A DNA stretch of 64,000 nucleotides from Pseudomonadota bacterium (GTDB lineage: Bacteria > Desulfobacterota > Desulfovibrionia > Desulfovibrionales > Desulfomicrobiaceae). Shown one piece after another: positions 5,658 through 10,431 of this stretch. A model generated the notes under the pieces. It was not told the DNA's origin. It searched no databases and worked only from the letters and a program-made list of their open reading frames with translations. The position numbers and the translations under genes are program-made. The stretch covers positions 62,001 through 126,000 of the forward strand of contig JAHIQM010000020.1 in assembly GCA_018902545.1 (NCBI GenBank), written 5' to 3'. Numbering within the stretch: the stretch's first letter is position 1; each line of letters starts with the position of its first letter.

Positions 5658-7718
5658 TTATTCCGCGTCCTTCTTGCTGTCGGCGATGACCTGCTCGGCC
5701 ACGTTGGGCGGGCATTCCTCGTAGTGGGCGAACTCCATGGTGAACGTGCCCTGGCCGCCGGTCATGGAGCGCAGGTCCGGGGCGTACTTCATCATCTCGG
5801 CCATGGGCACGTGGGCCTTGACCTCGGTCACTCCGCCAATGGAATCGGAACCCAGGACCCGGCCGCGTCTGCTGGACAGGTCGCCGATGACGTCGCCCAT
5901 GAACTCGTCGGGGATGAAGACCGAGGCGAGCATGATGGGTTCGAGCAGGATCGGGCTGCACATCTCGATGGCCTTTTTGAACGCCAGGGAACCGGCGATT
6001 TTGAAGGCCATTTCCGAGGAGTCGACGTTGTGATAGGAGCCGTCGTACACGGCCACCTTGTAGTCGACCATGGGGTAGCCAGCCAGGAATCCGCGCACCG
6101 CCGCTTCCTGAACGCCCTTGTCCACCGCCGGTATGTAGTTACGCGGGATGGAGCCGCCGACGATCTCATCCAGGAACTCGTACCCCGCGCTGCGCTTGTT
6201 GGGTTCCATGCGGATCCAGCAGTCACCGAACTGGCCGCGGCCGCCGGACTGCTTCTTGTGCCTCCCCTGGACCTGGGCCTTGCCCTTGATGGTTTCGCGG
6301 TAGGGAATTTTGGGCGTCTTGAGGACGATATTGGTCTTATAGCGGCGTCTGACCTTTTCAACGGCCAATTCGATGTGCAACTGGCCCATGCCGGTAAGCA
6401 GCATGTCCCCGGTTTCGTCATTGCGCACCAGGTGCAGGTTGATGTCTTCTTCCAGGAGCTTCTGAACCGCCGCAAAGACCTTGTCTTCCTCGCCCTTTTC
6501 CTCGGCGGCCAGGGCATAGGAAATGATGGAGGGACTTAAGGCCGGTTTGGGCAGGATAAAGGGGGACTTTTCGGCGCACAGGGTGTCGCCGGTGGCCGTG
6601 TTCTTGAGTTTGGCCACGGCCACCACGGCGCCGGGACCGACTTCCTGCTTGCAGGGCGTCTGTTTTTTGCCTTCCAGATACAGGATCTGGCCGATCTTTT
6701 CTTTTTCGTCCTTGGTTGCGTTGAGGACGGCCGCGTCGGGGGACAGCACTCCGGACAGCACTCTGAGGACGGAGAGCTGACCGGCAAAGGGGTCGGCGAT
6801 GGTCTTGAAGACAAAGGCGGCCAGGGGCGCATCGGGGCTCGACGGGCGCTCGCCCCCGTCGGCGTCGAGCCAGGATTTGTGCTCAAGAGGCGAGGTCATG
6901 ACGCTTTGGATGGTGTCAAGGAGCGAGGCCGCGCCCTTGTTCTGCATGGCCGAACCCGCGCAGACCGGGACCAATGTGCGGCTGGCCACGCCCTCGCGCA
7001 GGCCGGAGATCATCTCCTCCGGGGTCAGCGAGCCTTCTTCCAGATATTTTTCCATCAGCTCTTCGCTGCTCTCGGCGATGTTCTCGATGGCGATCTCACG
7101 CGTCATGGTCACTTCGTCGGCGAGGTCTTCGGGCATGTCGATGGGGGTCAGGCCGCCAGTTTCGTCAAAGGCATAGGCTTTTTCGGCCAGAATATCGACG
7201 AGTCCGCGGAAATCGGCTTCGCTGCCGATGGGCAGGAAGAGCATGACCGGTTTGATGCCCAGGGTTTCGGACAGACCCTGGTAGGCCATCTGAAAATTGG
7301 CGCGTTCGCGGTCCATCTTGTTGATGAAGACCAGGGCCGGGAGATTCGCCTTGACGGCTTCGGACCATATTTTCTTGGTCAGGGGCTTGACCCCGTCAAT
7401 GGCGTCGAGGACCAGGACGACATTGTCCGCGCCCTGCAGGAGGTAGGGCAGATCGCCGATGAAATTGTTGTCACCGGGCGTATCGATGAGGAAATTTGGA
7501 TTTTTCTTCCAGGCGAACTGGGCGAAACTGGGCTGGATGCTGCCCCTGCGTTTGATTTCTTCGGGTTCGTAGTCCAGAACCGTGGAGCCTTCGTCTATTT
7601 TGCCAAGCCTGGTGATGGAACCGGCGGTGTAGAGCAGCATTTCGGCTACTGACGTCTTACCGGTTCCTCCATGCCCTATCAGGGCGAAAGTCCTCTGTTT
7701 TTGAAGTTGATCCTGCAT
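5658..7718 (-). CDS. EF-G-like translational GTPase (EF-G paralogue)
   Basis: A 686-residue GTPase of the elongation factor G family, but of the divergent EF-G2-like branch rather than the main str-operon copy. The G1 loop GHGGTGKT (15-22), G3 DTPG (79-82) and G4 NKMD (133-136) are present. EF-G domains II, III, IV and V follow, including TGMGQLHIELAVE and the C-terminal RGRVLGSD region. A strong AAGGGGG ribosome-binding site supports the ATG at 7718. It is transcribed alone, divergent from the ParB-like gene. Members of this branch are thought to act in ribosome recycling or in conditions where EF-G is limiting. The exact role here is inference. Confidence 0.88.
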   Translation of the reverse strand: MQDQLQKQRTFALIGHGGTGKTSVAEMLLYTAGSITRLGKIDEGSTVLDYEPEEIKRRGSIQPSFAQFAWKKNPNFLIDTPGDNNFIGDLPYLLQGADNVVLVLDAIDGVKPLTKKIWSEAVKANLPALVFINKMDRERANFQMAYQGLSETLGIKPVMLFLPIGSEADFRGLVDILAEKAYAFDETGGLTPIDMPEDLADEVTMTREIAIENIAESSEELMEKYLEEGSLTPEEMISGLREGVASRTLVPVCAGSAMQNKGAASLLDTIQSVMTSPLEHKSWLDADGGERPSSPDAPLAAFVFKTIADPFAGQLSVLRVLSGVLSPDAAVLNATKDEKEKIGQILYLEGKKQTPCKQEVGPGAVVAVAKLKNTATGDTLCAEKSPFILPKPALSPSIISYALAAEEKGEEDKVFAAVQKLLEEDINLHLVRNDETGDMLLTGMGQLHIELAVEKVRRRYKTNIVLKTPKIPYRETIKGKAQVQGRHKKQSGGRGQFGDCWIRMEPNKRSAGYEFLDEIVGGSIPRNYIPAVDKGVQEAAVRGFLAGYPMVDYKVAVYDGSYHNVDSSEMAFKIAGSLAFKKAIEMCSPILLEPIMLASVFIPDEFMGDVIGDLSSRRGRVLGSDSIGGVTEVKAHVPMAEMMKYAPDLRSMTGGQGTFTMEFAHYEECPPNVAEQVIADSKKDAE

Positions 7719-7999: not shown

Positions 8000-8971
8000 A
8001 TGAACAAGGTTGACGCTCCGCGCTGGGGCCATGCATGCGCCACAATTCTGCGCTGCGCCGCATCGGATATCGACGTCAAGGGACCCTGGCTTTTCTGGTC
8101 CGCTCCGCCATCCCCGGCCCTGCGCGGCAGTCTGGAGCGTCACGGACAGCTTGTGCCCATACTGGTCGATGCGGGCGGGGCGCGGCCGGTGCTCGTCGCC
8201 GGGGCAGCCCGGGCGGCCATCCTGGCGGAACTGGGGCGCGAGGTGCTGTGCCTGGATATTGGCGCGCTGAGCGATGAGGCCAGGGGACTGGCCTACGTGC
8301 AGTCCAATGCGGACCGCGAGCTGACCGATGGGCATCTGGTCCTGGCCATGCGCTATTTTCTGTCCCTGCCGGGATGCGACATGGAATCCGTGCTCGAAGC
8401 ATTGGGTCTTGATGCGCGGTCCAAGCGGCTGCGGCTGATTCGCTCCTGGCTGCGTCTGCCCCGGCGTTGGGATGGGCTCCTTTGCTCGGGGGCCGTCCCC
8501 CTGGCCTGTGCGGACCTGCTCGAAACGTTTGCGCCTGAAGATCTCAGTGTCCTGGAATCCCTTTTCGCCACCTTGTCCTGGTCGCGCGGAAATGCGGTCA
8601 ACGTGCTGACCTGGATCCGCGAGGTCTGCGCCAGAGACGGCGTCAAAGCCGCAGCGGTGCTGGAGGGCCTGGGGGAAACCCTGGCGGCCGGACTCTCGCC
8701 CAAGGACACCATGAGCAGGATCACCCAGGAGGTGCGGCGGCTGCGCTACCCCATGCTTGCGGGCATGGAGCGGGATTTTGCCGAAACCGCTCGCAAGGTG
8801 TCCGCCGGAACACGCTGGCGAGTGACGCAGCCGGACCTTTTCGAGAGCGACGCGGTGGAAGTGAGCGTCCGCGTGACCAGCGCCGGTGAATTGCGTGCGG
8901 CCGGAGCAGAACTTGTCCGCATGGCGGCGCGCGAGGATCTGGACGATCTCTTTCCGGTGGTGCGTAAATGA
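8000..8971 (+). CDS. ParB-like protein coupled to the downstream radical SAM gene
   Basis: A 323-residue protein with a ParB/sulfiredoxin-like N-terminal region. Residues 42-80 show the pattern 'L..HGQLVPILV...G..PVLVAGAARAAILAELG', which resembles ParB box I/II. However, the CTP-binding GERR motif of true ParB is replaced by GAAR. Residues 115-200 look like the following helical DNA-binding part of ParB/KorB (LGLDARSKRLRLIRSWLRLP). No ParA gene is adjacent, so a chromosome-partition role is unlikely. The stop overlaps the start of the next gene by four bases (ATGA). The pair probably functions together; regulation or substrate recognition is possible, but the function is not known to me. Confidence 0.75.
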   Translation: MNKVDAPRWGHACATILRCAASDIDVKGPWLFWSAPPSPALRGSLERHGQLVPILVDAGGARPVLVAGAARAAILAELGREVLCLDIGALSDEARGLAYVQSNADRELTDGHLVLAMRYFLSLPGCDMESVLEALGLDARSKRLRLIRSWLRLPRRWDGLLCSGAVPLACADLLETFAPEDLSVLESLFATLSWSRGNAVNVLTWIREVCARDGVKAAAVLEGLGETLAAGLSPKDTMSRITQEVRRLRYPMLAGMERDFAETARKVSAGTRWRVTQPDLFESDAVEVSVRVTSAGELRAAGAELVRMAAREDLDDLFPVVRK

Positions 8972-10068
8972 CCGTCCTGCCCACGCATCTGCAAGGCATC
9001 AGCCGGGTGGTGGTCGATGCGGCCGTGGCCGGTTCGACCATCGCGGCGCGTGTGCGGGAGCGCCTGCCGCACCTGAAGCAGGAAACACTTCAGGAGGGAG
9101 AAACCCTGGCTGCGGGGTTGGCGCGGGAGGACATCCTGTATCTGAAGCGGTACCGGGGGCGTTTTCTGCGTCACTGCCCGGGCACCAGTCACTACCGCTG
9201 CTGCGGGTATCAGATCGTTCATATCGGAGAGAATTGTCCCCTGCGTTGTTCCTACTGCATCCTGCAGGCCTATTTTCAGGACCGCGTGCTCAAGGTCTGG
9301 GCCAATCAGGACGATTTGAGGCTGGAGCTGGACCAGGCTTTTCACGCCAGTCCCGGTCGTCGTTACCGAGTCGGGACCGGGGAGTTCACCGATTCCCTGG
9401 TGCTTGAGGCGTTGACCGGCTACAGTAGAGATCTTATTGAATTTCTTGGAAATTATCCGCAGGTCTGCCTGGAACTCAAGTCCAAAGTCGTGGACCTGTC
9501 GTGGATGGATGCGGTGCGTGATCCGTCCAGGGTCCTGCCCGCCTGGTCCATGAACGCGCCGGACATTGTCGATGGCGAGGAGCAGGGGGACTGCGCAAGT
9601 TTGGAGGAACGCCTGTCCGCGGCCCGGACCTGCGCCCAGGCGGGCTTTCGGGTCTGCCTGCATTTTGACCCCATGATTCATTTCCCTGGCTGGAGGGAAG
9701 GCTATGCCCGGACGGTGGAGATGATTTTCGATCACCTTCAGCCGGAGCAGATCGCCTACGTCAGCATGGGGTCGTTTCGGCACATGCCGGATTTGAAACG
9801 CTGCATCAGCGAGAATTTTCCGGGATCAAAATATATCTATGGGGAGTTCGTGACGGGACTCGACGGCAAGCAGCGCCTGTTGCGGCCGCTTCGGGTCGAG
9901 CAGTTCCGATTCTTGGCCGATGCGCTGCGCCGGGGCGGGGTGGATCGGCAGCTCTATCTGTGCATGGAGTCGGACGAAGTCTGGCAGGCAGTGCTTGGAC
10001 GCACTCCTGCAGACCTGGGCGGGCTCTACAGGCACCTCATGGCGCAGGCTTTTGGGGAAGAGGGCTAG
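8968..10068 (+). CDS. Radical SAM protein of the spore photoproduct lyase family
   Basis: A 366-residue radical S-adenosylmethionine enzyme. The [4Fe-4S] motif C90-x3-C94-x2-C97 (CPLRCSYC) is followed by the SPL-type segment ILQAYFQ. Further SPL-like landmarks are GTGEFTDSL, LELKSKVVD, SMNAPDIV, HFDPMIHFPGW and, near the C-terminus, LYLCMES..VW, which contains the conserved late cysteine of the family. Spore photoproduct lyase repairs the thymine dimer of spores, but this organism type does not sporulate, so the substrate may be different DNA damage. The start overlaps the preceding stop (ATGA). Confidence 0.88.
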   Translation: MTVLPTHLQGISRVVVDAAVAGSTIAARVRERLPHLKQETLQEGETLAAGLAREDILYLKRYRGRFLRHCPGTSHYRCCGYQIVHIGENCPLRCSYCILQAYFQDRVLKVWANQDDLRLELDQAFHASPGRRYRVGTGEFTDSLVLEALTGYSRDLIEFLGNYPQVCLELKSKVVDLSWMDAVRDPSRVLPAWSMNAPDIVDGEEQGDCASLEERLSAARTCAQAGFRVCLHFDPMIHFPGWREGYARTVEMIFDHLQPEQIAYVSMGSFRHMPDLKRCISENFPGSKYIYGEFVTGLDGKQRLLRPLRVEQFRFLADALRRGGVDRQLYLCMESDEVWQAVLGRTPADLGGLYRHLMAQAFGEEG

Positions 10069-10095: not shown

Positions 10096-10431
10096 GGCCC
10101 GCTGTCGGCATGGCCTTGAGGCCCGCCGGAACTCCTTCACCGGCCTCGTAGAGTTGAATCGTTGCGTGACGGGCGGAAAAGCTGGGCTGGACGACCGGCA
10201 ACGATTCAACAAACGATGCCTGGCTCAGTCAGACAGCCGACGAGCCTCAAGGCCATGCCGACAGCGGGCCTTGAGCCATGCCGGAACTCCTTTACGGGTC
10301 TCGTGGAATTGAATCGGTGTGTGCGGGGCGAAAAATTTGGGTAGGACGTGCGGCAACGAGTAGGCAAACGATGCCTGGTTCAGTCAGACAGCCGACGAGC
10401 CTCAAGGCCATGCCGACAGCGGGCCTTGAGG
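10096..10431. repeat. Two tandem ~155-bp hairpin-bearing repeats plus an inverted partial copy
   Basis: A 27-base core occurs at 10244-10270 and again at 10399-10425, giving a period of 155 bases. A copy in the opposite orientation lies at 10096-10122. The units begin with a GGAACTCCTT-containing segment, contain a TTGAATCG block, and are nearly identical over their last 60 bases (from AAACGATGCCTGG on) but diverge in the middle. Each core forms a hairpin: CCTCAAGGCC (10400-10409) pairs with GGCCTTGAGG (10422-10431) around a 12-base loop, and the first unit forms the same hairpin at 10245-10276. Short reading frames across it look non-coding. No gene is seen between 10069 and 10479. Confidence 0.8.

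Follow-up and report, generated by a model that had tools for sequence, protein, structure and literature searches.

The window analysed here, a 64-kb stretch of DNA (G000:C19:62001-126000) from a 3.7-Mb genome whose nearest named relatives are Desulfomicrobium records (L041–L043), encodes a radical S-adenosylmethionine (SAM) protein with the predicted fold of spore photoproduct lyase (SPL) next to a ParB-like partner. The ParB-like gene (8000–8971, 323 amino acids, P0001) and the SPL-like gene (8968–10068, 366 amino acids, P0002) are open reading frames (ORFs) on the + strand, as are all window features below unless stated, and they share the four bases ATGA (8968–8971), as described in an earlier reading of this DNA (the original prediction). 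In the window's phylum the coupling of the two genes is strongly supported and the ParB-derived partner is near-obligate for the SPL-like protein, and a dedicated family 2 glycosyltransferase (GT2), encoded outside the window, co-occurs with them. The folds are known, the SPL-like proteins would form a new sister family of SPL, and the three-part association is one that we could not match to any described system.

Conservation of the gene pair

Among 61 near genomes the SPL-like gene was found in 49 and the ParB-like gene in 46, all of them with the SPL-like gene, and the coordinates place the two genes as neighbours in 36 of the 46. A scan of genome contigs gave 59 loci, ranging from Desulfovibrionales to KSB1, Omnitrophota, Spirochaetales and Chitinivibrionales. 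Confinement of the neighbouring pair to close relatives, which the original prediction had named as a result that would count against it, proved wrong, as the neighbourhood is kept far beyond them. The exact 4-base overlap recurs in eight other loci (L052, L058, L064, L071, L075, L082, L087, and L088, with mechanically chosen starts).

All counts for the window's phylum refer to the same 247 genomes. With SPL-like proteins defined there by E < ~1e-65, which drops the ten weaker of 149 matched genomes as probable paralogues or fragments, the gene is present in 139 genomes, and the partner is present in 132 of these. The partner is adjacent, i.e., on the same strand and within 1.5 kb (two gaps measure 857 and 1182 bases), in 90 genomes, 87 times upstream and three times downstream, the latter all in family f7 (G061, G100, G135). 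It lies elsewhere in 42 genomes and was not seen complete in seven, which include two with partial matches (G216, G222). The totals of 132 and 90 include G178, where the partner was recognised by its C-terminal domain. In ten adjacent partners the match begins at profile position 149 or beyond; one of them (G198) is probably a gene split between contigs. In three others (G121, G232, G272) it ends before profile position 235. At the cut-off used, five genomes carry the ParB-like gene without the SPL-like gene; three of these have a weaker SPL-type match and four have the GT2.

The partner search covered 20 genomes behind the fetched loci. Two of the 18 loci without an adjacent partner, L047 and L063, lie at contig ends and were left out; the genomes of the other 16 were searched in full, the remaining four being adjacent cases. 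A ParB-like match above the canonical level was found in 16 of 16, extending far into the C-terminal domain in 15 and ending at position 220 in that of L050. As the two genes occur together also in genomes that have them at distant sites, a coupling of their products, as proposed in the original prediction, is strongly supported in this phylum.

In the KSB1-type phylum the SPL-like gene was found in 64 of 79 genomes, 48 of them at E < 1e-98; the other 16 match more weakly (E 1e-75 to 1e-49) and possibly represent a sister subfamily. For the 15 best SPL-like loci of this phylum the partner lies close upstream in 13 and, for L166, elsewhere in the genome. In the Spirochaetota 80 of 149 genomes have the SPL-like gene. 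Partners beside it were seen in G300, G431, and G467, and four of 12 inspected loci had a partner. Among the matches listed, 22 Spirochaetota genomes reach profile position 270 and 20 of these have the SPL-like gene (not G421 and G437), at scores where diverged partners come near canonical ParB.

Fold and active site of the SPL-like protein

The second gene product was called SPL-like in the original prediction, and this held. P0002 matches PF20903 (SPL) with 62.5 bits, and a search of PDB sequences at E 0.1 gave SPL chains only. The predicted model (predicted local distance difference test, pLDDT, 92.7; predicted template modelling score, pTM, 0.92) superimposes on SPL with Z 34.5 and 2.3 Å over 318 residues, compared to Z 14.7 for the next family. 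The modelled fold is that of SPL. The chemistry may be different. The match to TIGR04070 reaches 63.1 bits where the curated cut-off is 400, and the single match of the whole window genome to that model (62.8 bits) likewise lies below the cut-off.

The radical SAM motif CxxxCxxC (Cys90, Cys94, and Cys97; 9235–9258) is invariant and complete across an alignment of 53 SPL-like proteins, which has 42 invariant columns. These were compared with residues 31–295 of the Geobacillus SPL chain 4rh0: 16 columns are identical, 12 differ, and 14 fall opposite a gap or outside the stretch compared. One of the 16 identical columns, Cys70, matches only through an engineered cysteine (Cys76) of the 4rh0 chain, so that of the 28 comparable columns 12 differ from the chain used and 13 from wild-type SPL. 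Shared with SPL (SplB of Geobacillus and Bacillus) are the whole fold, the cluster motif, and K174, S195, and N197, which presumably have a role near SAM. The positions needed for SPL catalysis are not shared. In Bacillus SPL, Cys141 and Tyr99 are described as hydrogen donor and radical relay (PMC3742179). In the SPL-like proteins the donor position (Cys140/141) holds Glu in 47 of 53 and Gln in the other six, Glu139 of the GTGE motif of P0002 (136–139; 9373–9384) taking the place of Cys140; the original prediction had named the lack of this late cysteine as a result that would count against it. The relay position (Tyr98/99) is Ile in 50 of 52 and Val in two (Ile98 in P0002). Having neither residue and failing the TIGR04070 cut-off, P0002 was rejected as a true SPL.

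The differing invariant columns include Glu169/Lys171 and His232/Asp234, i/i+2 pairs in predicted strands 166–172 and 229–236, where SPL has Arg/Val and Val/Ala, respectively. The second pair belongs to a family-specific HFDP motif (232–235; 9661–9672) on a predicted barrel strand, at which SPL reads VVAP. As both pairs alternate along their predicted strands, they probably line the active-site pocket.

Candidate roles of the invariant cysteines

Four further cysteines are invariant among the 53 proteins. Cys70 of a CPGT motif (9175–9177) aligns with SPL position 76, Cys78-Cys79 (9199–9204) faces a gap in the aligned SPL, and Cys332, in a Cys-Met-Glu-Ser motif near the C terminus (9961–9972), lies outside the SPL stretch compared. 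Position 76, which we take to be equivalent to Cys74 of Clostridium acetobutylicum SPL, carries the engineered cysteine in the C140A/S76C structure 4rh0. As Cys70 sits opposite this position, it is possible that it is a relocated hydrogen donor. With residues 76 and 140 masked, MAFFT retains the pairing, whereas a local hidden Markov model (HMM) alignment stops short of position 76. For SPL from C. acetobutylicum a donor cysteine other than the Cys141 type is described, Cys74, projected to the opposite side of the pocket (PMC5368176). According to the same source that enzyme repairs spore photoproduct with a conserved tyrosine, whereas the SPL-like family lacks a tyrosine at position 98. On the other hand, since Cys70, Cys78, Cys79, and Cys332 are all invariant, an auxiliary iron-sulfur cluster formed by them is, judged from the alignment, an equal possibility to a relocated donor.

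The ParB-like partner

P0001 alone gave no Pfam match at E 0.01, just one 12-bit chance match. Its likeness to ParB, as claimed in the original prediction, is nevertheless borne out by a profile of P0001 with 37 relatives, which matches Noc/ParB/Spo0J chains at E 2e-23, and by the predicted model (pLDDT 93.5), which superimposes on structures of ParB, Noc, and KorB with Z scores between 8 and 11.8. A ParB_N-type domain spans about residues 15–107 (8042–8320), as placed by structure matches to 7bm8_A (model residues 14–107) and 6ryk_A (11–109). PF02195 (ParB_N) is matched by 20 of the 38 aligned members, P0001 itself not among them; the helix-turn-helix (HTH) model HTH_ParB is matched by two of 38, and structural matches span the HTH region.

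ParB box II is degenerate in P0001 (GAAR, residues 68–71; 8201–8212), so that the original prediction was literally right in finding no GERR. Gly68 is however kept in 38 of 38 members and Arg71 in 37. In the Desulfovibrionales-like set Gly is present in 19 of 19, the first Arg in seven, and the last Arg in 18; in the other 19 members Gly, Phe/Tyr, and the last Arg are present in all and the first Arg in 15, the motif reading G[FY]RR, or GF[KHQ]R in four. Judged from these counts, decay of box II is mainly a feature of the Desulfovibrionales-like set and the family-wide loss is that of Glu only. The further claim that the protein is not a standard CTP-dependent clamp is plausible for Desulfovibrionales; distant members retain most of the motif. 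Compared to the CTPase clamps ParB, Noc, and KorB, the family shares the ParB_N fold with the helices that follow and the Gly and last Arg of box II; it differs in lacking the box II Glu, in seldom matching the HTH model, and in having a C-terminal domain of its own.

This family-specific domain (residues 179–323; 8534–8968) is the sole domain of the adjacent partner in at least eight other genomes. In eight fetched loci (L120–L124, L126–L128) the protein encoded next to the SPL-like gene has 168–199 amino acids and consists of the C-terminal domain alone, without the ParB fold, and in some Spirochaetota partners (L245, L247) the domain follows a diverged N-terminus. The C-terminal domain is therefore the common core of the partner family. 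A sequence search of its profile against solved structures gave no convincing relative, the best match being a designed protein at E 0.01. In G216 (L131) a candidate fusion of partner and SPL-like protein has about 62 positions of the domain at E ~1e-4 to 1e-5, which is suggestive only.

Some neighbours of partner genes were also recorded. In L120–L122 the C-terminal-only partner directly follows a gene for a small HAD-type protein, and one of the same kind lies about 1 kb from the GT2 in L210. In L077 (838–1791) and L083 (2939–3898) the ParB-like gene shares 11 bases with the end of a purC-like gene; with a TetR-type gene before it, the SPL-like gene comes after a further distance of about 3.2 kb in L077 and 1.1 kb in L083.

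A GT2 glycosyltransferase as third component

In four loci without an adjacent partner (L069, L080, L084, L089) the gene directly upstream of the SPL-like gene encodes a member of a single GT2 subfamily. Identity to the first member is 39–60% across ten proteins of this subfamily, drawn from several phyla; the L069 protein matches PF00535 (Glycos_transf_2) at E 2.5e-30, and D87-S-D89 and E175-D176, which we take to be the DxD and ED functional motifs of GT2 enzymes, are invariant in the ten aligned proteins. Among solved structures, chondroitin synthase is the best relative in sequence.

In the window's phylum the dedicated GT2 was defined by E ≤1e-79, the next match being at 2e-61 (156 genomes match at 1e-40). 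It is present in 139 of the 247 genomes: 130 have it together with the SPL-like gene, nine have GT2 alone, nine SPL-like alone, and 99 neither (Fisher 1e-46, shared ancestry ignored). In 47 of the 139 genomes the GT2 gene precedes the pair or one member on the same strand, at a distance of no more than 700 bases. The order GT2>ParB>SPL is found in 37 genomes, and G178 is a 38th, with the C-terminal domain between GT2 and SPL-like genes. All three genes are absent together from G289 (f13), G145 (f19), G074 (f20), and G271 (f82), in families whose other members are positive, and in family f5 none of the three is present in seven genomes, whereas G050 carries the full set. The f7 genomes, with the ParB-like gene downstream and no dedicated GT2 found, possibly represent a two-gene variant. 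In the Spirochaetota, where the cut-off was 1.2e-65 and the scores show no clean gap, a strong GT2 match is present in 64 genomes, 62 of which have the SPL-like gene.

Several side observations concern the surroundings of the GT2. IspH-type genes cluster in eight of 20 regions around unlinked GT2 genes, and in L192 (5631–7340) and L201 (5689–7401) a single ORF a short way upstream of the GT2 has both a LytB (IspH) domain and a UbiA prenyltransferase domain by Pfam. The GT2 of G259 (L220 8797–10437, − strand) has an N-terminal extension of about 250 amino acids that looks nucleosidase- or phosphorylase-like by eye, with no Pfam matches in it. Together with one PNP_UDP_1 gene near the GT2 in L198 this was too little to consider a nucleosidase as a further component.

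Relation to known systems

In the hopanoid side-chain pathway (HpnH/HpnG/HpnI) a radical SAM enzyme is followed by a GT2 glycosyltransferase, as in the pathway proposed below; the hopanoid pathway has a radical SAM enzyme of another family, a lipid product, and no ParB-like protein. SplB-like radical SAM proteins outside spore formers are reported from SOS regulons and beside ImuB-C (PMC8565304, PMC3765255). The partners of those in Bacteroidetes SOS operons are ImuB-C or SOS genes, and the term ParB is absent from PMC3765255. No literature joining SPL or radical SAM proteins with ParB, with or without a glycosyltransferase, was found among open-licence papers, the matches being unrelated genome or phage papers by title. 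This negative is weak evidence of novelty, as it is confined to open-licence papers.

A proposed pathway and its alternatives

The reading that we favour is that the three proteins act in one modification pathway, to which we give about an even chance. The mechanism proposed for it, a chromosomally encoded pathway of an SPL-like, a ParB-derived, and a GT2 protein, is put forward with somewhat less than even confidence. The SPL-like protein would make the 5'-deoxyadenosyl radical, and this would activate a carbon in a polar substrate bound by the conserved barrel residues Glu139, Glu169/Lys171, and His232/Asp234, with Cys70, or a second iron-sulfur cluster of Cys70, Cys78, Cys79, and Cys332, playing a part in electron transfer or quenching. 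Docking of the enzyme on a macromolecular target would fall to the ParB-derived protein through its C-terminal domain, and the GT2 would glycosylate either the activated product or that target. Such a scheme fits the second suggestion of the original prediction, another radical modification system.

The ParB and SPL ancestries would make a nucleic acid a likelier target than a protein or an envelope glycan, which is the weakest step of the proposal; scattered ssb-, HU/IHF-, and recG-type neighbours were counted in the same direction. Even so, a nucleic acid target is doubtful. It is tempting to speculate that a rewired-cysteine enzyme of the SPL fold and a ParB-derived specificity subunit make a radical-derived nucleotide modification, which the GT2 then glycosylates, on chromosomal DNA or RNA. 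This is rather unlikely to be right in full, and it is with equally low expectation that we suggest such a pathway to be common across Desulfobacterota and KSB1-type bacteria and to occur in many Spirochaetota.

A number of observations count against the three-protein pathway. The ParB-like proteins have a median isoelectric point of 6.55 and are not basic, which together with the rarity of HTH_ParB matches speaks against DNA binding; the neutral charge, the few HTH matches, and the envelope-like GT2 cluster of the window genome all speak against a nucleic acid target. In that genome the GT2 (G000:C1:33794–34591) adjoins two GT4-like genes and one heptosyltransferase-like gene, by eye, and in other genomes it lies near ispH/dusB, recG, or clpX. 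Of the nine window-phylum genomes with the SPL-like gene and no GT2, three make up all of family f7 (G061, G100, G135); among the nine in the opposite situation five also lack the ParB-like gene, and GT2 is present and the pair absent in G106 and G169, both well covered. In the Spirochaetota 18 of the 80 SPL-like genomes have no strong GT2 match, and the partner was shown, with a weak profile, in at least 23 of the 80, a result that lowers confidence both in the pathway and in nucleotide modification. A fourth shared gene was sought in 40 regions around the GT2 or the triad, which gave local synteny only (ispH, dusB, HIT, clpX, SDR).

The function suggested in the original prediction, recognition and repair of DNA lesions, would have the SPL-like protein reverse an ultraviolet-induced or anaerobic thymine lesion by means of Cys70, with the ParB-derived protein loading it on DNA and the GT2 linked only indirectly. 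The common fold, the place of Cys70 at the site where a cysteine was engineered into C140A SPL, the use of Cys74 on the other side of the pocket in C. acetobutylicum, and the SOS-associated SplB-like proteins all speak for repair. On balance it is not supported, and unlikely: Tyr98 is lost together with Cys140, the barrel lining is different and polar, MAFFT alone still pairs Cys70 with position 76 once the cysteine is masked, and some partners lack the ParB fold. Moreover, in the window's phylum the co-occurrence of the GT2 with the SPL-like gene is about as tight as that of the ParB-like partner, and repair with Cys70 leaves the GT2 unexplained. In another scheme the GT2 would serve envelope or protein glycosylation, either making a glycan or glycoprotein or decorating one; the radical enzyme would act on the sugar or on its acceptor, and the ParB-derived protein would be a DNA-free adaptor. 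This would suit the neutral charge of the ParB-like proteins, the GT4- and heptosyltransferase-like surroundings in the window genome, and the relationship to chondroitin synthase. Most of the 19 other regions read around unlinked GT2 genes are however no glycan clusters, the exceptions being a mannose-1-phosphate guanylyltransferase-like gene in L205 and a GH57-like gene in L209 and L210, and among the loci with neighbours read the pair is not beside envelope genes, save a murJ-like gene in L073, L079, L081, and L098. Glycosylation of this kind seems a fairly poor prospect.

Finally, the three genes may be unrelated housekeeping genes that the same lineages happen to keep or lose. Their presence does track lineages, and the Fisher values ignore shared ancestry. 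The recurrence of one gene order in 37 genomes and a 38th, and the joint absence within otherwise positive families, argue against co-inheritance alone, which we regard as improbable.

Genomic setting

The gene upstream of and divergent from the ParB-like gene (5658–7718, − strand) resembles a second EF-G gene by eye; a similar neighbour is kept beside the ParB-like gene in L141, whose genome has the SPL-like gene elsewhere. Identities given here as GT4, heptosyltransferase, IspH, DusB, MurJ, EF-G2, ssb, and HU are by-eye readings of sequence, save where Pfam is named. No parA-like gene adjoining the ParB-like gene was seen among the ORFs of the window. Directly 3' of the SPL-like gene are palindromic repeats (10096–10425) with 34-nt arms that are 94% complementary, and a 221-base query from them has 54 matches in the genome, i.e., it is a dispersed element resembling a miniature inverted-repeat transposable element (MITE) or a repetitive extragenic palindromic (REP) sequence. 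A mobile or phage origin of the system was dropped: plasmids gave no match, and in phages there were two, with 28% identity across roughly half of the protein.

Implications

SPL is treated as a sporulation enzyme. A sister family with an altered active site is present in over half of the genomes sampled from each of two phyla (139 of 247; 80 of 149), and a KSB1-type sample has it in 64 of 79 genomes. Its ties, in the window's phylum, to a single partner and a single GT2 subfamily give three testable genes for one function. If the interpretation is correct, naming these genes after SPL is probably misleading, and the family may be a natural example of a radical enzyme with a relocated cysteine.

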